Assembly: GCF_000710035.2 (NCBI RefSeq)
Contig: NZ_JMJJ01000005.1
Span: forward strand, 372,001-436,000
From: Pantoea ananatis LMG 2665
Lineage (GTDB): Bacteria; Pseudomonadota; Gammaproteobacteria; Enterobacterales; Enterobacteriaceae
Length of the DNA: 64,000 nt
Direction: 5' to 3'
Position numbers and translations under genes: made by a program. The notes beneath the pieces were generated by a model that saw only the letters and a program-made list of their open reading frames with translations, searched no databases and was not told the DNA's origin. Shown here piece by piece: positions 4,059 through 14,497 of this stretch (the stretch's first letter is position 1; the number at the start of each line of letters is the position of its first letter).

Positions 4059-4850
4059 TCAATCTCGAAGAGGGAAAAACTGCGCCGCATCAGACAGCGA
4101 GTGCAATAAGGTGGTGTCTTCTGGTGAACCTACCCACACAGCCATGGCGCTGAAGTTGTCCTGTTGACCCCCCTGCGGTTGGCTGTTTTTGATAATTTGT
4201 TGCATCAGGGTCAGCCACTCTTCTGGCGTATTCACCATATGCAATGATTGCTGCATTTGTTCCAGCGTCACGCCATGCCAGAAACCATCCGTACACAGCA
4301 AAAAGGCATCCCCATCCTCAATAGGCACCACATCGCTGTAACTGGCATCCCGCTGTTCATCGCCCATGCCTAATGCAAAATAGAGCAGGTTACTGTTAAT
4401 GCCTTCTGTCTGGTGCCCGGCATCTTTCATTTGCTGAATCAGGCTGTGGTCTGTGGTCACGTGGTAGAGATAGCCCCGACGAAACAGGTAAAGCCGACTG
4501 TCGCCTGCATGCGCCCAGTAGGCCAGTTCATAGTCTCTGTCGATAAACAAACTCACCAGCGTGGTGCCCATCCGGCTGTGCTGACTGTTTGCCTTTTGCT
4601 GTTGCCGAATGGCGCCATTGGCATAATTCACGTAATCGCGAATGGTTTGCGCATCGAGATGCGCATTGCCATCAAAGGCTTCCATCAGGCTACTGCGTGC
4701 AATTTTTGCTGCCACGTCACCGCCGGGAAACCCTGCCACACCATCACACACCACAAAGCAAGCCGAACGCTCGCCGATGCTCTCACCGGTTTGATCCTGA
4801 TTGCTGGCGCGGTCGCCCTGATTCGACGTGGAAGCAGTAGAGATATTCAT
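4059..4850 (-). CDS. pppA: T6SS PP2C-type Ser/Thr phosphatase PppA
   Basis: This cytoplasmic phosphatase reverses threonine phosphorylation of the FHA protein and so restrains T6SS firing, as known for PppA of Pseudomonas aeruginosa. The 263 residues carry all the PP2C metal motifs: GDRASNQD (12-19), VVCDGVAGFPGGD (34-45), AHAGDSRLYLF (about 113), LLCTDGFW (about 195) and GGQQDNFSAMAVW near the C-terminus. The ATG overlaps the tagH stop by 4 bp. The matching kinase PpkA is not in the window, so either it lies further left or control here is incomplete. Confidence 0.93.
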   Translation of the reverse strand: MNISTASTSNQGDRASNQDQTGESIGERSACFVVCDGVAGFPGGDVAAKIARSSLMEAFDGNAHLDAQTIRDYVNYANGAIRQQQKANSQHSRMGTTLVSLFIDRDYELAYWAHAGDSRLYLFRRGYLYHVTTDHSLIQQMKDAGHQTEGINSNLLYFALGMGDEQRDASYSDVVPIEDGDAFLLCTDGFWHGVTLEQMQQSLHMVNTPEEWLTLMQQIIKNSQPQGGQQDNFSAMAVWVGSPEDTTLLHSLSDAAQFFPLRD

Positions 4851-6745
4851 GCGTCATCCGTGTGGGTTTGTGAGTCTTTATACTGATTTACTTCCATGTC
4901 GTACGCGTGCAAGAAGGCTTCGCCAAACAAGGTATGGAAGTCATCTTCAATTTCACCGGCAGTTTCGCCATAGCGCTGGATAAAATGCTCCCACAGCGCG
5001 GCTTTACGGCTGCCGGGTAGTCCAATGCGCGATACGGAACCGTTTTGACGCGCTTCTTCTTCGAGCTGATCGGGGTTAAAGGACTGCAGCATGGAAGCAA
5101 TAATGGCGCGAATACCGGCAATCATCCCTAACTGGTGCGCCTGGAGGTCAATCAGTGCGTCACGCACGGCCTGGCGTGGCGGCATAAAACCTGGCATACG
5201 GCTGCCAAACATCTGCATCAATACGGTTTTACCTGACGGCAGCAGCTTAAAAGGGTTGTTAGCATCATCCAGGATCACGGTCATGTCGGCTTTTACACCG
5301 CGTTTTAAAATCGACCGGGAAGATAGCAGTGCCACCGTTCCCTGCGAGAACATGCTGAGCATCTGGCCGAACTGCCGCATCTGCTCGCGATCGAACTGCG
5401 GTGTCGGTTGCAGATCCTGCAGGCCCATACCTTCCAGCAGTGCATCCAGTAACTCGCCCTTTAAGGCATCACCGCTACTGGCATTGCCACTCTGCTCGGT
5501 CCCACCGCTGTTATTGTGCGAGGCAACCGGATCGATGCGCAGCCGCCCTTTTGGCGTGGGCGAAGGCGTGCGTTGCACCGCCTGCGGTGTTGGCAAGGTA
5601 ATGCCGCCGTAATCAATCGGGCTTTGCGCTCCTTCAGGCTGGGCAGGCTGCGGTTGAGGATCGAAAGCGGGATCGTGAGTGGCCTGTGTTTCAGTGTGAT
5701 CAAACAGCGGTGAACTGCTTAAATCAGCCAACTCAACCGGTGCAGTATCCAGGATATCTGGCATCGGCTGGTGATTTTCTTGCGGCTGTAATGGCGCCGC
5801 TTGATGGAGCTCTTTCTGCTGCAAGGGTGCAGACTGATGGTTTTCTTTCGGCTGCGATGGCGCAGCCATAGGTTGCGAAACCGGCATATCTGGCTGAGCC
5901 AGCGGCACTGCACCGCTCATCATTAACCCCAGCGGATCGTCATGATGACGCGGGTCCGGCGTGGCCTGGCTGCCAAACAGATTTAACGGGTCCACGTCCG
6001 TGGAGGTTTCCTCTATTTTGGGCTGCCCTTGCGCATTTTGTTTTGCCGACAAGGTGCTGGGCGTGCGGTCATCAAAAATGCTTTCCTGAGCAAACAGCGC
6101 ATCCTCTTCATCAAACAGGCTGCTTGTCTTAGGTTGCTGACCGATATCCAGCGGTTTATCGCTCATTAACTGAGCCAGCGGATCTTCGGGATTACGGTTT
6201 GCCGCTGTAGAGGTTAACGGATTTGCCTCCGGCATTTCTGGCGCAGCACTTTTACGTTTCGATAAGTCATCAGAAATTGAAAACTCTTTGGCAAGGCTGT
6301 CCCAGATCTCGCTGGGAATGGCAGCCGTGCTGGCAGCCGGCGCCTGTACAGGGACCGCATTGGGTACGGGCTGCGGCTTAGGTGCGGCTGCAGCGGTCAA
6401 CGGAGGCTGCTGCGATTGCTGCTCGCCATTAAGATCGTTAACCAGCAGGCGATAGTCGTCGATGCCGAGAATATCTCCGTCCTGCAACTCCACCTGACGT
6501 CCACGCTCAAGCGGGATGTCATTCAGCAGCACGCGCGTAACGTTACCGCGGTTGGTCAGGCGACATTCGCCCTCTGCAGTAATATGCACGATAGCCTGCA
6601 GGCGAGAAATAGTGCGATCGTCGTCGGGCAATATCAGATTATTATCCACGCCTCGACCGATAGTGCCGCCTGGAGGAAGAAAATCGAAACTGATTTGCGG
6701 CGGTTCATGGCCGGGTTTAGCGGTTATTATCGTAAAGCGCATCAC
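4847..6745 (-). CDS. tagH: T6SS FHA-domain protein TagH (Fha/ImpI)
   Basis: TagH is a scaffold that binds phosphothreonine and couples PpkA/PppA signalling to T6SS assembly. The 632 residues divide into three parts. An N-terminal FHA domain (about 25-102) has Gly30-Arg31, Ser47-Arg48, His54 and Asn75 in the expected spacing. A long Pro/Gln-rich low-complexity linker (about 105-420) follows, and then the conserved TagH C-terminal domain (about 430-620, with LLDALLEGMGLQDL and LFGEAFLHAYD). The linker holds three imperfect 11-residue repeats near residues 293-327 (QPKENHQ, QQKELHQ, QPQENHQ). It is the first gene of the left T6SS operon; 130 bp separate it from the hcp island. Confidence 0.93.
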   Translation of the reverse strand: MMRFTIITAKPGHEPPQISFDFLPPGGTIGRGVDNNLILPDDDRTISRLQAIVHITAEGECRLTNRGNVTRVLLNDIPLERGRQVELQDGDILGIDDYRLLVNDLNGEQQSQQPPLTAAAAPKPQPVPNAVPVQAPAASTAAIPSEIWDSLAKEFSISDDLSKRKSAAPEMPEANPLTSTAANRNPEDPLAQLMSDKPLDIGQQPKTSSLFDEEDALFAQESIFDDRTPSTLSAKQNAQGQPKIEETSTDVDPLNLFGSQATPDPRHHDDPLGLMMSGAVPLAQPDMPVSQPMAAPSQPKENHQSAPLQQKELHQAAPLQPQENHQPMPDILDTAPVELADLSSSPLFDHTETQATHDPAFDPQPQPAQPEGAQSPIDYGGITLPTPQAVQRTPSPTPKGRLRIDPVASHNNSGGTEQSGNASSGDALKGELLDALLEGMGLQDLQPTPQFDREQMRQFGQMLSMFSQGTVALLSSRSILKRGVKADMTVILDDANNPFKLLPSGKTVLMQMFGSRMPGFMPPRQAVRDALIDLQAHQLGMIAGIRAIIASMLQSFNPDQLEEEARQNGSVSRIGLPGSRKAALWEHFIQRYGETAGEIEDDFHTLFGEAFLHAYDMEVNQYKDSQTHTDDA

Positions 6746-6875
6746 GGATTCCTGCGGTTAGCTGTTCGACATCTATATCGCGCGTCTCTCGGGGAGAAAG
6801 GCGGGATATAGAAGCGTAGTCAATGGTACGGAAGATAAACGCAACCCTAATGTTGCAGATAGCCATCCGTGAAAG

Positions 6876-7277
6876 TTAATCGTAGGGCATTTCTGATAAT
6901 TCTTTCGTGCGTAACTCATCAAGCCTGGCGACGCACTCGTTATTAAATACGGTGTGCGCATTGCTGCCTTTATCTGCGGGATGCGCATATAACTGGCACT
7001 GCTCGTCACGGTAGGCTAACCAGTGACGCTGGGATTGAATAAACAGGTTCTGGTAGTTCTTTTTAGCTTGAGGTTCACTTTGAAAAACATGTTCGATACG
7101 TTTTTTCGTCGCCCCGTAGGCCTGATTTAAATCGTCTTCTGCATGTGCCCGGTTATTCTCGGCACAGCTAAACACATCGGCATCACTGGTCTTTTTAGCG
7201 CAGTCATCAAGGGCGTAAACGGCGGAAGAAAAACCAAACATGATAAAAGTCGCACATCCCAAAAAAGATATCTTCAT
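6876..7277 (-). CDS. Secreted LprI-domain (lysozyme-inhibitor-like) protein, copy A
   Basis: A 133-residue exported protein with a signal peptide (about residues 1-22, ending SAVYA) and an LprI/DUF1311-type domain. The typical pattern is visible: paired cysteines in DDCAKKT and VFSCAENN, NQAYGATKKRI, the signature SQRHWLAYRDEQC, and a final NNECVARLDELR. LprI of Mycobacterium tuberculosis inhibits lysozyme, and the domain is common in periplasmic proteins of gram-negative bacteria. Its place inside a T6SS locus suggests a periplasmic protective or immunity role, which is inference. It lies 94 bp after unknown secreted protein copy 1, the same order as the second pair at 9382-10411. Confidence 0.8.
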   Translation of the reverse strand: MKISFLGCATFIMFGFSSAVYALDDCAKKTSDADVFSCAENNRAHAEDDLNQAYGATKKRIEHVFQSEPQAKKNYQNLFIQSQRHWLAYRDEQCQLYAHPADKGSNAHTVFNNECVARLDELRTKELSEMPYD

Positions 7278-7371
7278 TTTTTATATTGACCTGTTTTACA
7301 GATGTAAAAGCGCATTGTTTAACTGATGTCAGACTACGGTGAGGAACTCGCCTATCAGGGCAAGGCGCAAC

Positions 7372-7923
7372 TCAGGGCATTGTCCTGTAAAGGGTTCGCA
7401 GTTCCTTGATCGATTTTGCTCCTGAAGCTCCAATTTTCCTCGTCAGCGGCTCATTGATAGTGATCGAGTGATTGGTCAGGTCGACAGAAACGATGATGGC
7501 TTCCTGTGCTGTCGTATTGGGAGACGCAACGTCATATATCACCGCGATGATGACTTTATTATCTTTTTCATCGAGCATGCCGACAGAGCGAGTCGCATGA
7601 CATGTTTCCGCTTCCCAGTCACCGAATCCAATTGTTGGTAAAACACGCTCTGCCTGATGAGCGTTGTTTGACCAGGCGACAAAACACACGTCCTTATCTT
7701 GTGAGTCGAAACCCTGCCCGGCAATAAAACTGCCCAGAACTTTGCCTTCATTAACCAGATGAAAACTTTGGTGTGGAACTGGAGAACCGCCCTGAATGCC
7801 TTTATCAGACGATAATTTATAAATACTTTTCTGATAGGGCGCATCCGCTATAGGAGCAAGGGAAAGCGCAGCCAATACGTGAAAAGGGGTTAACAGCGAT
7901 AAAAACATTAGTACATAGCGCAT
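7372..7923 (-). CDS. Unknown secreted protein, paralogue 1 of the hcp island
   Basis: A 183-residue protein of no family I recognise, with a clear signal peptide (MRYVLMFLSLLTPFHVLA). It is a diverged paralogue of the protein at 9839-10411. Both have an HQSFHL/HSQTFHL strand, VCFVAWS versus VCFIAWS, GFGDWEAETCH versus GHGDWETVGCH, and a C-terminal GAKSIKELR versus GIKSIAEMR. Two cysteines are conserved (in CFxAWS and in the xxCH after GDWE) and could form a disulfide in the periplasm. As in the other copy, an LprI gene comes next, here after 94 bp. Immunity or stress-protein function is possible but not shown. Confidence 0.7.
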   Translation of the reverse strand: MRYVLMFLSLLTPFHVLAALSLAPIADAPYQKSIYKLSSDKGIQGGSPVPHQSFHLVNEGKVLGSFIAGQGFDSQDKDVCFVAWSNNAHQAERVLPTIGFGDWEAETCHATRSVGMLDEKDNKVIIAVIYDVASPNTTAQEAIIVSVDLTNHSITINEPLTRKIGASGAKSIKELRTLYRTMP

Positions 7924-8012
7924 AATATTTTATGTATCCATTGACGTAATGACCACTTGAATGGTGAAAATATCATTGCACCACTATAACGTCATATCAG
8001 CCTGTTAAAAAA

Positions 8013-8407
8013 TCAGTATGGCAGCAGTTTAAGTACGGCCGTACGCTCAGTATCCATTCGATAAATGCAGAGATTCGTTGTGACAGCATATGGATTACTG
8101 CCTTCTTCTGCAGCAAAAGCTTCAAGATGACATTGACCATCCCTGAATTTAAGCCAATTACGCTGCGTATCAACCACAATCCCGGCATACTGCTCACCCA
8201 GTTTTTTTGAGAGCCGTACATTTTTACAATGCGCTCTCTTGCAAGACCCTATTCGTGATTTAACTCTTTTTCAGCCTGGCTTTTGTATTTAACAGAACAT
8301 TGATATAGCTCGACATCATTACTTGTTTTAGAACACGGTGTTTCTGCGAAGCAGGAAGCTGAAAAAACAGCGATTGAAGCCACGAAAAACGCTGCGTAAA
8401 TTTTCAT
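8013..8407 (-). pseudogene. LprI-family gene broken by a nonsense codon and a frameshift
   Basis: From the ATG at 8407 the frame encodes a signal peptide (MKIYAAFFVASIAVFSAS) and the start of an LprI domain (ETPCSKTSNDVELYQCS), then meets an in-frame TAG at 8251-8249, after NHE. Translation past it continues as LprI sequence (GLARERIVKMYGSQ) up to a run of seven A (T7 on the plus strand, 8202-8208). There a one-base shift is needed to recover RNWLKFRDGQCHLEAFAA and a terminal LCIYRMDTERT, stopping at 8013. Both halves align with the intact neighbours (NQAYG..KKRI and SQRHWLAYRDEQC), so this is a decayed paralogue with two separate lesions. Confidence 0.85.
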
Positions 8408-8518
8408 TACTCACTCGACTCCGAAAGTTACAGATCTCATCTCATCAACAAGCGTATTAAGGTAAAGAAAGCGCGCTCGCTTATCTTAAAAGACTCACTT
8501 AAACAGGCACTGATCATT

Positions 8519-9328
8519 TCATTGCTTTGCCAACTCAACGAGTTCATCAACACGATCTTGCATTTTTTTCTTAAGACATGCTGGATTAACAGAACACGCA
8601 TTTCTTTCGTCAAGCCAGCGTTTCTGTGTTTGACGGAGCTCGACTGAACGTGATTTGACATCAACCCCTGTATTCACAATTTGCTTTAACGCCACATTGT
8701 ATGCCTCGGCCACGCTTACATCCCAGGAGGACAGATCCGAATCATGACAGATGGATTTTTCACTGTCGTTTGTAGCTCTTGCGCAGGCGAACGAAGGTTG
8801 CAATTTGGCATTGTTAGCGAGTTTTTTTAGTAAAAGATAAGACTGGTTATCCCAGTTCAGGAATATTGACTCTTCATCAAGTTTTACAAGCCAGTGTTCG
8901 CTATTTTCACCCGACAGGGTGATTTTTCCATTCTGACAATGAATGCGATAAGGACGAATTTCTAACGTTCCTTTGATGGGAAGAGCATAGCTTTTAGCCG
9001 GATCGGAGAGCTGCCCTTCTGTCGTCCTGCTCATCAAAGAGTTTATTGATGTCACGTCCATGGAATCATAATCTGGCAAGTCACAGTGACTAGCTGTTGG
9101 TATTGACGTTTTTATTATATCCGGAGTGAATTCAAAAATACGTTCTCTCAGCGTCGGGTCATCAGAAATTAGCGCCATCAGGTTTGTAGAAGTGGAATCT
9201 TCGTTAACATAAACATGTTCAACTTTCCAATTACCATCAAGTTTTAAAACACGTCCCTGTTCAGCAGAACACAGTAACGGCATAACCAGCGAAGCGATAA
9301 AAACGAATAAAAAACTGATTCTCAGCAT
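8519..9328 (-). CDS. Secreted protein with C-terminal LprI-like domain
   Basis: A 269-residue exported protein (signal peptide about residues 1-22, ending LLCSA). The N-terminal 160 residues match nothing I can name; they include a WKVEHVYV strand and the cysteines SHCDLP and RIHCQNG. The last 95 residues are LprI/DUF1311-like: SFACARATNDSEKSICHD, VAEAYNVALKQ, LRQTQKRWLDERNAC and a closing RVDELVELAKQ. So it is a longer architecture carrying the same domain as the smaller neighbours. It lies between two LprI genes (one intact, one broken), and only about 50 bp separate it from the upstream gene at 9382-9780. Confidence 0.75.
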   Translation of the reverse strand: MLRISFLFVFIASLVMPLLCSAEQGRVLKLDGNWKVEHVYVNEDSTSTNLMALISDDPTLRERIFEFTPDIIKTSIPTASHCDLPDYDSMDVTSINSLMSRTTEGQLSDPAKSYALPIKGTLEIRPYRIHCQNGKITLSGENSEHWLVKLDEESIFLNWDNQSYLLLKKLANNAKLQPSFACARATNDSEKSICHDSDLSSWDVSVAEAYNVALKQIVNTGVDVKSRSVELRQTQKRWLDERNACSVNPACLKKKMQDRVDELVELAKQ

Positions 9329-9381
9329 AATGCTCGCCTGGAAGTGAAATAACGCAATGAAGCTTACTTTTAATTCAATAA

Positions 9382-9780
9382 TTAGCCGTAAGGGACTTTT
9401 TTAATTTTAGTGATTCTTTCTCTATCCAGATCTGCTACACAGATTCTTCTGTATGCCATACTTGCGTCCGAATTTTTTTCCGCTGCCATTGAAGCTAACT
9501 CACAATCGCCATCACGGTATTTAAGCCAAGAGCGCTGTGATTCAGTAAAAACTCGCAAATACTCATCTCTGTCTTTAACGGAACCACTGTAAACATCATT
9601 AATTCTTTTTTTTGCCGCCTGATATTCTTTATTTAAAGACAACTCAACGACGTTCACTTCATTATTAATACATTCGTAGGTTTCTTGTACAACATTATTA
9701 TCAATACAGGCAACTTTTTCTGAAGCTGATGCATTGGTATAAAAAAATAAAGTTATGACACTCAAAAATAATGTTTTCAT
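9382..9780 (-). CDS. Secreted LprI-domain protein, copy B
   Basis: A 132-residue exported LprI-family protein. The ATG at 9780 is preferred over an upstream one at 9822, because it gives a compact signal peptide (MKTLFLSVITLFFYTNASA) directly. The domain shows VACIDNN, ETYECINNEV, NKEYQAAKKRINDVY, the signature SQRSWLKYRDGDC and RRICVADLDRERI. It is closest in layout to copy A at 6876-7277, and it follows unknown secreted paralogue 2 after 58 bp, so the secreted-protein/LprI pair is present twice. The DNA here is clearly richer in AT than the core T6SS genes. Confidence 0.8.
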   Translation of the reverse strand: MKTLFLSVITLFFYTNASASEKVACIDNNVVQETYECINNEVNVVELSLNKEYQAAKKRINDVYSGSVKDRDEYLRVFTESQRSWLKYRDGDCELASMAAEKNSDASMAYRRICVADLDRERITKIKKVPYG

Positions 9781-9838
9781 TTTTATACCTGTCTGTTTGC
9801 TCTGTTCAAAATCAAAAAACAAAGCCTGGAGAAATATT

Positions 9839-10411
9839 TTATTTTTTCAGCATCACTCTCATTTCAGCGATTGACTTTATTCCAGAGTTTTGAAATTTCT
9901 CGGTTAAACCTTTGTCGAAAATGATCTTTCCTGTTGAGAGATTAAAATCGAGCACATAATAATCAATACCATAACCGTCGTTGTGATTAGCAGGCAATTC
10001 GATTTGGTAAATAGTTGCAATTTTAACATGATCTTCATTCTGCTGAGAAATGACACCTACCGCATAAATCTCATGGCAGCCTACTGTCTCCCAATCCCCA
10101 TGACCTATCGTTTCAATAAACTGGTCTATAACTTTGCCATTTCTAGACCAGGCGATGAAACAAACAGGTTGCGTCGTATTAATCCACGCTCTTCCCTGAA
10201 TCAAGGCTCCCACTTCTTTATTGCCATTATAAAGATGGAATGTTTGACTATGGTTAATTTCAGCACGTTTCAGGTCAGGAGTTTCAATTTGCTCAATGAG
10301 AAGACTCTCATCCGGAAGTGACCTAAAGGGTGAAATTGTTAAGCCAGCAAAACTTAAAAAACTAGAGAGCATAATTGCCAGCCCAAAAGTTATTATTTTC
10401 ATTTTATTCAT
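9839..10411 (-). CDS. Unknown secreted protein, paralogue 2 of the hcp island
   Basis: A 190-residue protein with a signal peptide (about residues 1-22, ending LSFA). The start may be the ATG at 10411 or the one three codons later; neither has a strong ribosome site. It shares with the protein at 7372-7923 the blocks HSQTFHLYN, VCFIAWSRNG, GHGDWETVGCH and GIKSIAEMR. It begins 8 bp after the candidate immunity gene (10420-10833), so it may be read through from hcp and the effector. Low GC content fits recent acquisition. The function is unknown. Confidence 0.7.
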   Translation of the reverse strand: MNKMKIITFGLAIMLSSFLSFAGLTISPFRSLPDESLLIEQIETPDLKRAEINHSQTFHLYNGNKEVGALIQGRAWINTTQPVCFIAWSRNGKVIDQFIETIGHGDWETVGCHEIYAVGVISQQNEDHVKIATIYQIELPANHNDGYGIDYYVLDFNLSTGKIIFDKGLTEKFQNSGIKSIAEMRVMLKK

Positions 10412-10419
10412 TGACCATA

Positions 10420-10833
10420 CTAATTAAGTGCATAAACAAAGGAAAACAAAAGAAAACCAAAAACCGCAGTGAGTATAAATATAACTCTATAAAGAAAAAC
10501 CAAAGAAGCTATCCATCTTGTCAATTCCTCTGGTTGCGACTGGATAAAAACATAAGCGTTTTCTCTTACATCTTCATTTTGTCTGAATTTCATTTTCACA
10601 CCTTTTTGAAGGCGATGTAAATATGAGAGCTTTTGATAATTTGCATAAAAACCCAAGTTGCTCGCAAATTTGGTACTAGTATCGAGCTGAAGACCTGCGC
10701 TATTAAATTCACGGATTATTTTTGTGTATTTAGCACTATTTTTTTTAAAAAAAAGAGATGCGAAAACATGTAAAAAACCAATAAGGAAGAATAAAAAAAC
10801 AATCGTATACATGGTGATGTCATATAATGTCAT
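10420..10833 (-). CDS. Two-transmembrane protein, candidate immunity to the adjacent effector
   Basis: A 137-residue protein of no recognised family. It has a hydrophobic N-terminal segment (about 6-28), a soluble and rather basic middle (about 29-105) and a second hydrophobic segment (about 108-134), so probably an inner-membrane hairpin with a central soluble loop. Its ATG overlaps the stop of the upstream 330-residue gene by 4 bp, the arrangement expected of an effector-immunity couple. Pore-forming T6SS effectors are usually neutralised by small inner-membrane proteins, which fits here but is inference. The DNA is very AT-rich. Confidence 0.6.
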   Translation of the reverse strand: MTLYDITMYTIVFLFFLIGFLHVFASLFFKKNSAKYTKIIREFNSAGLQLDTSTKFASNLGFYANYQKLSYLHRLQKGVKMKFRQNEDVRENAYVFIQSQPEELTRWIASLVFLYRVIFILTAVFGFLLFSFVYALN

Positions 10834-11822
10834 AAAATCTTATCCATGATTAAGTCTACAGCTTTTCCACCGGCCTCACCAAAACCATATCCACCTGCGG
10901 CACCACCAACTATGCCACAAGCCAAGGCTCCAACTCCACCGGTTGCGACTCCCAGCGCAACGCATGCGCCTGTAGCAAGTGAAGCTGACAAAGCCCCACC
11001 ATAAAAACCAGCCAGTGTACTTCCTGCAAACTTCGAATATTCTTTTACAGCAACTTTAGTACACTCATTCTCGCGGTCAATTGTGCATCCTTTATATACA
11101 TCATTAGTTGTGTTCAATGCACTAAAACCGATAGCAACCCAGCCTCCATACTTCATGAATTTTGCGGCCTTAGCAGCTGCATCAACGTAGGTTGAGTATC
11201 CTCGAATAGCACCTACACCTGCCGTTTGCCAGTCATGCACTATTGATGAACTTGAAAGATTTAATGCATGTTTTAATTGTTCATAAGGCTGTAATCGCAA
11301 TGCTAATCGAGAAAAGCGATTAAGTAGAACTTCTAATTCATTGAAAAGGCGACGTCGTTCGATGAAAAATTGCTCGCCAATAAGTGTCCCTGCTGTTAGG
11401 TACTGATTCCGATAGGCATTTTCAATAGCTTTCAACTTATTACCTATCTCTGAAAAATATTTTTCACCGGCATCACCGATTAATCCTACGCCCTTATCCA
11501 TAAAATTCGTTATTGCAGCAATTGAATCATAATGGCGGTGAAAAAAATTTGCATCCTCTACAGACATGGTAGCCAGGCTATTATTAGTATGCTTTTTTGC
11601 AGCATTGAGAGAATTAATTACTGCTGGATTATTTTTCCCGTTGGGATCTGCAACTATAAGCATCTGGCCAGGCTTTGCCCACACGATGTCTGCGTTCAAT
11701 TGCAAAAAATAATTTTTTGCTGAAAGATTACGATTACCAAATAAGAACATTGCTTGCTCAGTCAAGCTACCGGGACGTTGAACTACGCAAAAGCCAGGCT
11801 CGACATTGCTTTTTCCTGCCAT
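10830..11822 (-). CDS. Candidate Hcp-associated T6SS effector with glycine-rich membrane-active C-terminus
   Basis: A 330-residue protein without a signal peptide, encoded directly after hcp. The N-terminal 230 residues are mostly soluble and helical (for example SVEDANFFHRHYD, ERRRLFNELEVLLNRF). The C-terminal 100 residues hold several small-residue hydrophobic segments (WVAIGFSALN, TLAGFYGGALSASLATG, VGALACGIVGGAAGGYG), a glycine-zipper pattern seen in membrane-inserting toxins. There is no VgrG, PAAR or Rhs domain and no enzyme motif I recognise. The position after hcp, lack of a signal peptide and overlap with a small membrane-protein gene support a T6SS cargo. Toxicity and target are inferred. 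Confidence 0.6.
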   Translation of the reverse strand: MAGKSNVEPGFCVVQRPGSLTEQAMFLFGNRNLSAKNYFLQLNADIVWAKPGQMLIVADPNGKNNPAVINSLNAAKKHTNNSLATMSVEDANFFHRHYDSIAAITNFMDKGVGLIGDAGEKYFSEIGNKLKAIENAYRNQYLTAGTLIGEQFFIERRRLFNELEVLLNRFSRLALRLQPYEQLKHALNLSSSSIVHDWQTAGVGAIRGYSTYVDAAAKAAKFMKYGGWVAIGFSALNTTNDVYKGCTIDRENECTKVAVKEYSKFAGSTLAGFYGGALSASLATGACVALGVATGGVGALACGIVGGAAGGYGFGEAGGKAVDLIMDKIL

Positions 11823-11906
11823 ATAAACCCCACGAACGCGTTAGCTTTGATATAGGTTGATATCAATGATAATAGTTGAATCGGCTTATTAGAAATCTAT
11901 TGAATG

Positions 11907-11926
11907 AAGCGGCCCTAAGGCCGCTT
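11907..11926 (-). terminator. Hairpin between hcp and the effector gene
   Basis: A perfect 8-bp inverted repeat (AAGCGGCC at 11907-11914 and GGCCGCTT at 11919-11926) with a 4-nt loop lies just after the hcp stop. Read on the minus strand it is followed by CATTCAATAG, without a good T-run. It may be a partial terminator or an mRNA-stabilising hairpin, which would keep hcp transcripts more abundant than those of the effector. Confidence 0.55.
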
Positions 11927-11935
11927 TGAAATATA

Positions 11936-12418
11936 TTACGCTTCTTTGTTCTCTTTGATATTCCAGCCAGCGCTGCTTTCTGCGCCTTTGCCACCGGAAG
12001 AACTCTGCTCCCAGTACTGCTGTTTCACTTTCGCAGCCTGGAATGCATAGGTCACGCCCAGGGTATCGTCGTGCTCAGAGCCCACGAACTGTACGTTGGT
12101 AACCAGCACATCTTCCAGGGTGATGCGGGTGTACTCGATTTGCGTACCGCCAGCCTTGCAAACTGAAACTTCAACCTTAGTGACGTGCTTACCACTGGCA
12201 CAGTTTTTCAACAGCGCAGTGACAGCCTTGTCGATTTTGGCATTAATATGCAGGTCGTTGAAGTTTACTTTACCAGCACCGCCGCCGCCGCCCACGCTCA
12301 TATTACCCGGCTGATTAGCTCCCCAGGAGAAAGAGGTAATATCAATCCAGCCGGTATGGTTTGAATCTTTAGATTCACCAGTAATACCGTCTACCTTCAA
12401 ATACATATCAATAGCCAT
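11936..12418 (-). CDS. hcp: T6SS tube protein Hcp (TssD)
   Basis: Hcp hexamers form the expelled T6SS tube and can carry small effectors in their lumen. The 160-residue protein starts MAIDMYLKVDGITGES and shows the family blocks WIDITSFSWGANQ, the loop GGGGGAGKVNFNDL and DKAVTALLKNCASGKH. VGSEHDDTLGVTYAFQAAKV follows in shorter matching pieces, as does the Ser/Gly-rich tail. A hairpin follows the gene and 579 bp precede it, so hcp appears to be its own transcription unit between tssC and the variable island. That layout suits its high expression in other bacteria. Confidence 0.96.
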   Translation of the reverse strand: MAIDMYLKVDGITGESKDSNHTGWIDITSFSWGANQPGNMSVGGGGGAGKVNFNDLHINAKIDKAVTALLKNCASGKHVTKVEVSVCKAGGTQIEYTRITLEDVLVTNVQFVGSEHDDTLGVTYAFQAAKVKQQYWEQSSSGGKGAESSAGWNIKENKEA

Positions 12419-12997
12419 AATATTTACTCTTCGTTATGGAAAAAGTTGTCGCTTTCGAAAAAGCATCTATATGGCAAAGAGAAAAGCATGGGGCTGAATA
12501 AAACAGTCCATATTTTACTTTTGCCTCGACTCGGGAGGTTGCTACAGGCTCTCCGAAGTATCCCACCACAATTAACCGCTATAGCAGGAGATTTTTTTGC
12601 TGTATTCGTATTTCAAATTAATGTCATTGTGCAAAAAGCCATGACAATTATGGGGCAACCCGATTATGTTGCGCACTTTGTTTCAAGAAAATTACTCTGC
12701 TGGAACAAAGTCAAAAAAAACGATTAAAGAAGCCCAAATAATTTTCAGCTCGCCAAAGCCGACATTTTTATATTTTAAACACAGGTCGATCATTATACTG
12801 ATAAATGTATGATGAAAGCTTCCAGCCATTCGCCAAAGGCATCACTTTAGGAAAAGGTTTATTCCGCTTCATCAGCATAATCAAAGTATGAGGGACGACA
12901 TACATCAGCCATTTTTTTACATACGGCATGTTTTCATGCTTTAGTGCAGTTGCTCGCAAGAAGCACGCTCCGAAGAGCGTGCTTAGCGTTTCAACGA
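12419..12997. other. hcp upstream region, no confident gene
   Basis: This 579-bp stretch between the hcp start and the tssC stop is AT-rich. It should hold the hcp promoter and a possibly long leader. It contains the tssC terminator hairpin at 12961-12984. Frames at 12446-12727 (plus) and 12768-12959 (minus) look like chance; a short acidic stretch readable on the minus strand around 12820-12915 is interrupted by stops and could be a gene remnant. I found no convincing sigma-54 element. Confidence 0.6.
12961..12984 (-). terminator. Hairpin with UUCG-type loop after tssC
   Basis: A perfect 10-bp stem (AAGCACGCTC at 12961-12970 and GAGCGTGCTT at 12975-12984) encloses four bases that read TTCG on the minus strand, the very stable UUCG tetraloop. 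It lies 13 bp after the tssC stop and probably ends the core operon before hcp. The T-run after the stem is poor (CTTGCG), so termination may be incomplete. Confidence 0.7.
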
Positions 12998-14497
12998 TTA
13001 GTTTTCGTTCGACTTCAGCGAAGGCAGTTTCGATACCAGACGCAGCGAAACGGTTAACCCTTCCAGCTGGTAATGCGGACGCAGGAAGAATTTCGCGGCG
13101 TAATAACCTGGGTTGTCTTCCTGCTCTTCCACATTCACCTCAGCCGCAGCCAGTGGCTTGCGTGATTTGGTTTCCTGAGAAGAGTTAGCCGGGTCACCAT
13201 CAACATAGTTCATGACCCAGTCATTCAGCCAGCGTTCCATTTCGTCGCGCTCGCGGAACGAACCGATCTTGTCGCGCACAATACACTTCAGGTAGTGAGC
13301 GAAACGGCAGCAGGCGAACAGATAAGGCAGTCGCGCTGCCAGACGCGCATTGGCGGTGGCGTCAGCATCGTGGTACTCCGCAGGTTTTTGCAGCGACTGG
13401 GCGCCGATAAAGGCGGCAAAGTCAGAGTTTTTGCGGTGAACTAACGGCATAAAGCCATTCTTCGCGAGCTCGGCTTCGCGGCGATCGCTGATGGCGATTT
13501 CCGTTGGGCATTTCATGTCTACGCCGCCGTCATCGCTTGGGAACGTGTGGCAAGGCAGATCTTCAACCGCCCCACCCGACTCCACGCCGCGAATGGATGT
13601 ACACCAGCCGTATTCTTTGAACGAACGGTTGATGTTGGCCGCCATGGCATAAGCCGCGTTGGTCCAGCTGTAGTTGCTGTGGTCGGAACCGTCGGTCTGC
13701 TCTTCAAAATCAAAGCTGTCCACGGGGTTGGTGCGAATACCGTAAGGCAGACGAGAAAGGAAGCGCGGCATCACCAGGCCCAGATAGCGGGCGTCCTCAG
13801 ACTCGCGCAGGCTGCGCCAGGCAGCATATTCGGTATTCTGGAAGATTTTGGTCAGATCGCGTGGATTCGCCAGTTCCTGCCAGGATTCCATCTGCATTAC
13901 GCTTGGGGCTGTCCCGGTGATAAACGGACAGTGTGCTGCAGCACCGATACGCGCCATTTCGCCCAGCAGCTCGACGTCCTGCGGGCTGTGATCGAAATAG
14001 TAGTCGCCCACCAGGCAGCCAAAAGGTTCACCACCAAACTGGCCATATTCCTGCTCGTAGATTTTCTTGAACAGCGGGCTCTGATCCCAGCCCACACCTT
14101 TATAGCGTTTCAGGATGCGGCTCAGCTCCTGCTTGGAGATGCTCATAAAGCGAATCTTGAGCATCTCATCAGTTTCGGTGTTATTCACCAGATAGCTCAG
14201 ACCACGCCAGGCGCTTTCCAGCTTCTGAAACTCTTCGTGATGAATAATCTGGTTAACCTGCTGAGACAGCTTTTCGTCAATCTCAGCGATCAGCGCCTGA
14301 ATGGTGCGGTAGGCATCGCTGGACATGGTCACGGTGTTTTCCAGCGCCTGCTGCGCCAGGGTTTTTACCGCGCTTTCTACAGCTTCGCGTGCCTGGTCGC
14401 TTTTAGGACGAAATTCTTTGTTCAGTAACGCGCTGAATTCATCCTGACTAAAGCTGGCACCGCCCTGCGATTGTGGTTGTTGAGAAGTCTGGTTCAT
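12998..14497 (-). CDS. tssC: T6SS sheath large subunit TssC (VipB)
   Basis: TssC forms the contractile sheath around the Hcp tube together with TssB. The 499-residue protein has the usual size and blocks: SDAYRTIQALIAEID near 80, LESAWRGLSYLV near 110, FGCLVGDYYFDHSP near 175, RFLSRLPYG near 262 and the C-terminal NPGYYAAKFFLRPHYQLEG. The low-similarity first 20 residues are Gln-rich. It starts on the last base of the tssB stop codon (1-bp overlap), so the two sheath proteins are translationally coupled. Confidence 0.96.
   Translation of the reverse strand: MNQTSQQPQSQGGASFSQDEFSALLNKEFRPKSDQAREAVESAVKTLAQQALENTVTMSSDAYRTIQALIAEIDEKLSQQVNQIIHHEEFQKLESAWRGLSYLVNNTETDEMLKIRFMSISKQELSRILKRYKGVGWDQSPLFKKIYEQEYGQFGGEPFGCLVGDYYFDHSPQDVELLGEMARIGAAAHCPFITGTAPSVMQMESWQELANPRDLTKIFQNTEYAAWRSLRESEDARYLGLVMPRFLSRLPYGIRTNPVDSFDFEEQTDGSDHSNYSWTNAAYAMAANINRSFKEYGWCTSIRGVESGGAVEDLPCHTFPSDDGGVDMKCPTEIAISDRREAELAKNGFMPLVHRKNSDFAAFIGAQSLQKPAEYHDADATANARLAARLPYLFACCRFAHYLKCIVRDKIGSFRERDEMERWLNDWVMNYVDGDPANSSQETKSRKPLAAAEVNVEEQEDNPGYYAAKFFLRPHYQLEGLTVSLRLVSKLPSLKSNEN

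Follow-up and report, generated by a model that had tools for sequence, protein, structure and literature searches.

The window, a 64,000-nt stretch of the 4.94 Mb genome of Pantoea ananatis LMG 2665 (NZ_JMJJ01000005.1; G000:C6:372001-436000), carries a row of small genes between hcp (12418-11936) and fha/tagH (6745-4847) of a type VI secretion system (T6SS): two for paralogous secreted proteins, which we refer to by the working name SecP (SecP1 and SecP2), three intact genes for LprI-domain proteins and one broken LprI gene. Judging from gene order in related genomes, these SecP and LprI genes are very probably orphan T6SS immunity genes left over from displaced muramidase and lysozyme effectors in an exchangeable hcp-fha slot. 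SecP genes of relatives adjoin effector genes with a PF11860 muramidase domain, LprI genes of relatives adjoin lysozyme-like effector genes, and neither effector type has a match in the window's genome.

Effector genes adjoining SecP and LprI

The muramidases encoded upstream of SecP are approximately 280-330 aa long and consist of an N-terminal PG_binding_1-like region, which partly falls below the Pfam cut-off, and a PF11860 N-acetylmuramidase domain (E 4e-48 to 5e-57). In 10 of the 12 such muramidase genes seen, SecP comes immediately behind, with a gap of -4 to 12 bp. These twelve are from P. allii (G200), G246, G232, G235 (where the gene is split over two open reading frames, ORFs), Erwinia psidii (two), G097 and three Mangrovibacter species (five); the Mangrovibacter plantisponsor muramidase was recognised by a profile built here and not by its own Pfam run. 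The P. allii slot reads hcp-muramidase-SecP-fha in the same place as the window's slot, and the two fha share 94% identity. Among 61 genomes of the genus, PF11860 was present in four, each time adjoining SecP, and in none of the 52 SecP-negative genomes (Fisher p=2.4e-4 for co-occurrence, the genomes being taken as independent). As adjacency to an effector in some genomes is a mark of T6SS immunity proteins, we regard SecP as a family of candidate immunity proteins to effectors of the PF11860 muramidase type, and apparently a new one. In two Mangrovibacter species, a second muramidase gene (L018:9405-10271 and L065:4040-4891) has a gene for an unrelated small secreted protein just upstream (200 aa and 158 aa, respectively; loci L018:8778-10271 and L065:4040-5378), and these two proteins perhaps represent further immunity families.

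SecP1 and SecP2 are 29% identical and have in common two conserved cysteines, W84 and the motif GDWE. Their N-termini are hydrophobic by eye, with hydropathy peaks of 2.07 (SecP1) and 1.89 (SecP2). Assignment to a known family was rejected: nothing in Pfam or NCBIfam matched above cut-off, and sub-threshold matches of SecP1 to DUF7887 and acylphosphatase were taken as chance. SecP2 gave no match in the PDB by single sequence, and a profile search of the PDB gave only one at E 0.56, which is not credible. Searches that began from SecP1 and SecP2 and were extended to 16 relatives found SecP in five of 198 family genomes, in nine of the 61 genus genomes and in seven named loci (P. allii, three Erwinia and three Mangrovibacter). 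Among 394 order and 369 class genomes, with at most 8-9 candidates scored per genome so that weak copies may escape, only the window's own genome was recovered. The slot had no match in E. coli genomes at megablast sensitivity. Plasmid searches returned nothing for SecP2 or two relatives; for SecP1 they returned one match, a distant one, on a megaplasmid of Sphingomonas. This distant SecP (L064:4645-6393, S. parapaucimobilis plasmid NZ_CP155750.1; 28% identity over 138 residues) lies in an alphaproteobacterial T6SS locus in the order PG_binding gene, lysozyme-like fragment, gene for a 169-aa protein, SecP. The locus supports the association of SecP with T6SS, but not its specificity for muramidases.

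The effectors paired with LprI combine PG_binding_1 with a pesticin/phage-lysozyme-like domain; the Pesticin model PF16754 scored just above its cut-off in L053 and below it in L037 and L016. Nine of the ten intact lysozyme-like effector genes whose surroundings were read have LprI directly behind them, again with a gap of -4 to 12 bp, namely those in all seven genus slots with such an effector, in Erwinia typographi (L016) and in the stand-alone locus L066. In the tenth (L039), a PF00959 lysozyme effector gene is followed 8 bp later by a 260-aa homologue of the window's longer LprI-domain protein, LprI-C. The underlying profile search of the 61 genus genomes gave 30 rows, and neighbours were read for 11 of them (eight lysozyme effectors and three muramidase N-terminal domains). 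The stand-alone pair (L066:4175-5472, G226:C6) overlaps by 4 bp, with no T6SS gene in the 8 kb read around it, and is flanked by genes that by eye read as glmS (before) and pstS (after); such an interval is a typical insertion site.

Gene content and probable turnover of the hcp-fha slot

From hcp to fha/tagH, all on the minus strand, the slot contains the following genes.

hcp, 11936..12418, minus strand: upstream edge of the slot, with orthologues equally placed in relatives
Eff330, 10830..11822, minus strand: resident candidate T6SS effector of 330 aa with a glycine-rich hydrophobic C-terminus
Imm137, 10420..10833, minus strand: 137-aa membrane protein whose gene has a 4-bp overlap with that of Eff330; candidate immunity partner of Eff330
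SecP1, 9839..10411, minus strand: secreted protein, candidate for an orphan immunity function towards muramidase effectors of the PF11860 type
LprI-A, 9382..9780, minus strand: LprI protein of 132 aa; orphan candidate immunity to lysozyme-like effectors
LprI-C, 8519..9328, minus strand: secreted protein of 269 aa with a C-terminal LprI domain
Broken LprI gene, 8012..8407 (limits approximate), minus strand: early in-frame stop, the rest in another frame
SecP2, 7372..7923, minus strand: secreted protein, candidate for an orphan immunity function towards muramidase effectors of the PF11860 type
LprI-D, 6876..7277, minus strand: LprI protein of 133 aa, sister to the E. typographi LprI that adjoins a lysozyme-like effector
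fha/tagH, 4847..6745, minus strand: downstream edge of the slot

A preliminary description of this DNA, made from its letters and ORFs, had reported two paralogous secreted proteins, four LprI copies between hcp and tagH, among them a longer protein ending in an LprI domain and a broken LprI gene, and all of these were recovered here. SecP1 and SecP2 are intact ORFs (10411-9839 and 7923-7372). The three intact LprI proteins exceed the Pfam cut-off of 22 bits for LprI/DUF1311 (PF07007), with 60.9 bits for LprI-D, 50.2 bits for LprI-A (9382-9822) and 25.4 bits for the C-terminus of LprI-C. The fourth match (approximately 8031-8204; 29.9 bits) covers only model positions 48-106, over the 3' half of the broken gene, whose 5' part, read by eye, begins at approximately 8407 and runs into an in-frame stop at approximately 8251-8249, the remainder being frame-shifted. 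The TTG at 9822, given as the start of LprI-A in the ORF list, is probably not the true start; the ATG at 9780 yields 132 aa with a signal-peptide-like beginning. The same description had passed over the adjoining genes at 11822-10420, for the 330-aa protein and its membrane partner of 137 aa, which make up the resident effector module of the slot.

The G+C content is 35-45% in the slot (1-kb windows, 7000-12500) vs 52-58% in its flanks, with the minimum of approximately 35% at SecP1/LprI-A and a climb towards fha. The slot's seven main ORFs contain no recombinase domain, and the remaining ORFs of at least 80 aa between hcp and fha are no longer than 112 aa; membership in a recombinase-associated AID cluster was rejected on this ground. 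A scan for promoters and terminators gave about as many sites as shuffled sequences. SecP1 lies 8 bp behind Imm137, and LprI-A lies 16 bp behind SecP1 when counted from the ORF-list start. The genome has six LprI matches, four of which are inside the slot. One of the others, a 267-aa LprI-domain protein encoded approximately 21 kb before the window (L003:1-1959; G000:C6:349105-352383), is near a gene that by eye resembles a DcrB/Eag-like adaptor, and probably belongs to the vgrG/Rhs part of the same T6SS.

We compared the slots of the genus, in which 25 genomes have an orthologous fha and 24 slots were tabulated. The slot of G202 (L054) is outside the counts because an antisense ORF over fha was retained by the script, and three further loci (L061-L063, with fha pieces 49-63% identical) were mapped and not counted. 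The Eff330-Imm137 module was present in 11 of the 24 slots, a lysozyme effector with LprI in seven and a muramidase with SecP in four; one slot (L037) holds two effectors and a second hcp, and two (L035 and L049) hold none of these effectors. By eye, L046 and the uncounted L054 have a Tae4/Tai4-like pair, L054 reading hcp, Tae4-like, Tai4-like and a short Imm137 piece. Many immunity genes stand without an adjoining cognate effector (20 of 27 LprI, 6 of 10 SecP and 12 of 23 Imm137, counted on a thinned ORF list). In L047 and L048, another LprI stands behind a lysozyme effector and its own LprI, and in the tree this additional copy clusters with LprI genes paired to a different effector allele (L050, L051 and L053; support 91/91, just under the starred level). 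This arrangement illustrates effector exchange with retention of immunity.

Eff330 has no Pfam or NCBIfam match. Its homologues, with the same partner, form the commonest module of the genus slots. A displacement array would be expected to have its newest module beside the delivery gene and the older ones further off; Eff330 directly follows hcp in nine of its 11 slots, the window included, but in L036 and L038 SecP lies between the two. As many as three additional copies of Imm137 stand behind Eff330-Imm137 (L059), and short Imm137 pieces occur in some slots. The glycine-rich hydrophobic C-terminus and the membrane-protein partner suggest that Eff330 is likely a membrane-acting effector.

Probable orphan status and alternative explanations

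PF11860 had no match in the window's genome; the same search was positive in seven of the 13 genomes of the SecP search. Likewise, the lysozyme-effector profile had no match there at 1e-10, and 22 of the 61 genus genomes were positive, one of which (G246) matches only through the N-terminal domain common with its muramidase. A tblastn search of the effectors against 4801-13000 for remnants of displaced effectors gave nothing significant (best E 0.11). In lacking a match to the cognate effector types, the genome agrees with what the Kirchberger model of orphan arrays would predict.

The phylogenetic trees, which were midpoint-rooted, leave out L031 as the same locus as L014, and the LprI behind the last SecP of L020 and the LprI of L039 are absent from them. 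LprI-D and the E. typographi paired copy are sisters (support 99/92). LprI-A, on a long branch, belongs to a group of nine with the two paired copies of L047 and L048 (99/98). Five of the ten members of the SecP2 group are paired copies (100/99), as are three of the nine in the SecP1 group (95/91); thus, the two genes, in different supported groups that each contain paired copies and at 29% identity, are not recent tandem duplicates. Paired and orphan labels are interleaved, with six changes in each tree and clustering not above that of shuffles, as expected if orphans arise repeatedly.

Ratios of nonsynonymous to synonymous substitution (dN/dS) were calculated with a Nei-Gojobori script, and 15 chosen pairs yielded 11 estimates. 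The ratio was 0.08 between the orphan SecP genes of G236 and G226, 0.08-0.43 in seven orphan LprI pairs, 0.08 and 0.10 in two paired LprI comparisons, and 0.24 at dS 1.74 between SecP2 and the paired SecP of E. psidii. The low values of the orphan pairs argue for retained function of orphan copies in relatives. Decay also happens, as the broken LprI gene of the window shows.

The arrangement could be produced as follows. The 3.5 kb from SecP1 to LprI-D would be the distal portion of a slot for exchangeable effector/immunity modules, which reaches from hcp to fha of a Pantoea-type T6SS. A module would arrive as an effector gene with its adjoining immunity gene (PG_binding-muramidase/SecP, PG_binding-lysozyme/LprI or Eff330/Imm137), and the newcomer would displace the resident effector and leave the old immunity genes in place. 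In the window, Eff330 would now be the resident, SecP1, LprI-A, LprI-C, SecP2 and LprI-D the retained immunity to displaced effectors, and the fourth LprI a decayed one. We infer that SecP and LprI would be exported by Sec and disulfide-folded in the periplasm, where SecP would bind and block the muramidases of rivals and LprI their T4/pesticin-type lysozymes. The cell has probably kept these likely antidote genes to survive attacks by rivals. The suggestion of the preliminary description that the genes form a bank of periplasmic immunity to the wall-degrading effectors of rivals finds good support in the gene order of relatives, and a possible lysozyme inhibition by the window's LprI proteins has gene order as its only support.

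Several observations weigh against this explanation. Two of the 12 muramidases, the second copies in two Mangrovibacter species, adjoin other small secreted proteins and not SecP, and the neighbours of only 11 of the 30 rows of the lysozyme-effector search were read. The Sphingomonas locus violates both pairings: its SecP trails a lysozyme-like fragment, and that fragment adjoins a 169-aa protein without an LprI match. The window's proteins are only approximately 50-56% (SecP2 and LprI-D) or <50% (SecP1 and LprI-A) identical to their closest tree relatives, and at such identities their specificity may have shifted. Three of the four dN/dS comparisons with window genes (SecP1 twice and LprI-D once) gave no estimate, and selection on the window genes is unproven. 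The gaps between Imm137 and SecP1 and between SecP1 and LprI-A are near those of paired effector and immunity genes. Finally, the SecP-LprI order is recurrent, as described below.

Among the alternatives, SecP and LprI might be leftovers of displaced modules that persist neutrally and no longer have a function. This would account for the broken LprI gene, the unrelated resident effector and the short Imm137 pieces of some slots. We nevertheless consider it unlikely, since five of the six copies in the window are intact and orphan copies in relatives are under purifying selection (dN/dS as above), though part of that divergence may predate effector loss.

The preliminary description had also proposed that SecP and LprI work together. 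One functional two-part system, a complex or a relay selected as a pair, could explain why LprI directly follows SecP in eight of 23 SecP copies (both window copies, and those of L015, L020, L032, L033, L034 and L035). In a further copy (L039), SecP is followed by a 434-aa LprI-domain protein, and three of the pairs (L015, L032 and L033) stand behind a muramidase gene, where LprI could be a second immunity. Thirteen SecP copies, however, have no LprI-domain gene directly behind them, and one more lies at a contig end. Over the 24 congeneric slots the two families are not associated (seven with both, two with SecP only, 13 with LprI only and two with neither; Fisher p=0.61), and each trails its own effector type, LprI being the immediate partner of lysozyme effectors in loci that lack SecP. 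The LprI copies behind SecP also do not form one group of the tree, which includes seven of the eight. We thus reject the two-part system as highly improbable on the grounds of co-occurrence and trees. The SecP-LprI order is recurrent but not obligatory and is best explained as two modules side by side; dual immunity of SecP and LprI to one muramidase at L015, L032 and L033 is conceivable. Of the two findings that the preliminary description had named as speaking against its proposal, one holds, since most SecP copies are without a directly following LprI, and the other does not, since 21 of the 23 SecP copies are inside T6SS loci (18 in hcp-fha slots and three behind vgrG).

Least likely, we think, is that LprI and SecP serve as broad inhibitors of lysozymes from the host or the environment, and not of T6SS effectors, as for mycobacterial LprI, which owes its name to lysozyme inhibition (Sethi et al., 2016, as cited in PMC8867033): the genes lie in a T6SS effector slot, as do four of the genome's six LprI matches with a fifth near the putative adaptor gene, and their relatives are tightly paired with PG_binding-lysozyme or muramidase effectors.

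Going beyond orphan immunity as such, SecP might be an undescribed periplasmic inhibitor family dedicated to PF11860 muramidases, and Erwiniaceae might preserve in their hcp-fha slot a selected memory of earlier effector exchanges, roughly in the order of displacement, a proposal that we advance tentatively and with somewhat more doubt than conviction. If it is true, the row of orphan SecP and LprI genes would record the muramidases and lysozymes that the lineage once carried and still meets. The orphan-immunity reading itself gives an uncharacterised secreted protein a candidate immunity role with a named target enzyme class, and the slot provides a clear, directly testable, genus-wide example of effector replacement with immunity retention. 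As the PF11860 muramidase family occurs also in phage lysins, inhibitors of these enzymes would be useful reagents.

Comparison with known systems

In Vibrio cholerae, T6SS immunity arrays arise by sequential displacement of effectors (Kirchberger et al., 2017, PMC5361080). From the parts of that study considered here, the window's array resembles them in having a live effector-immunity pair followed by orphans related to the paired genes of other strains, and in the mixed origins of these orphans, which are not products of tandem duplication. The sequence data of the window fit this model of effector displacement with immunity retention. The differences are that the slot lies between hcp and fha in Pantoea/Erwinia and that the displaced effectors would be peptidoglycan glycosidases. 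SAIDI-1 of Salmonella Typhi, as presented in part of its source, is an orphan immunity islet similarly directed mostly against cell-wall-active effectors, but at the yegQ locus and not in a T6SS slot (PMC7400221).

Closer to the window, the hcp island of P. agglomerans C1 has four orphan immunity proteins of the Tai4 and LprI types (PMC12472927, 2025). Orphan LprI genes in a Pantoea hcp island are thus already reported, in the same hcp-tagH slot and with the same functional reading; the relevant passage of that paper names only Tai4 and LprI, and no SecP-like family or effector partner. The hcp/vgrG islands of Pantoea/Erwinia, the hcp islands being the same variable slot, have been described as carrying a colicin-like protein and PG_binding effectors whose further domains resemble pesticin or phage lytic enzymes (De Maayer et al., 2011, PMC3235180; Shyntum et al., 2014, PMC3942780), and the passages concerned assign no immunity genes to the hcp-island effectors. 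Orphan immunity genes were suggested for the vgrG-2 island of P. allii in a T6SS paper whose available passages do not contain the word 'muramidase' (PMC12873547).

LprI-type genes are also placed near T6SS effectors elsewhere, according to the excerpts at hand. The Serratia Ssp/Rap locus has LprI and Tai4-type genes in the equivalent interval between Hcp and Fha, but its effector-immunity pairs are of the Ssp/Rap type and its LprI is labelled by domain only (PMC5641365). In SPI-19 of Salmonella Dublin, an LprI-type candidate immunity gene, with a signal peptide, adjoins a LysM/transglycosylase effector (PMC8867033), and another adjoins WHIX effectors (PMC12135965, citing Carobbi et al., 2022). 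These cases share with the window's relatives an LprI beside a T6SS peptidoglycan hydrolase; the effector families differ, and the immunity role is predicted there too. 'LprI' was not found in the passages of a Klebsiella survey (PMC12469244). No pairing of a muramidase with SecP was noticed in the portions of the literature searched; it may be described there under another name, or elsewhere. The array is real and well explained; its kind is already known, and the assignment of SecP is apparently the new part.

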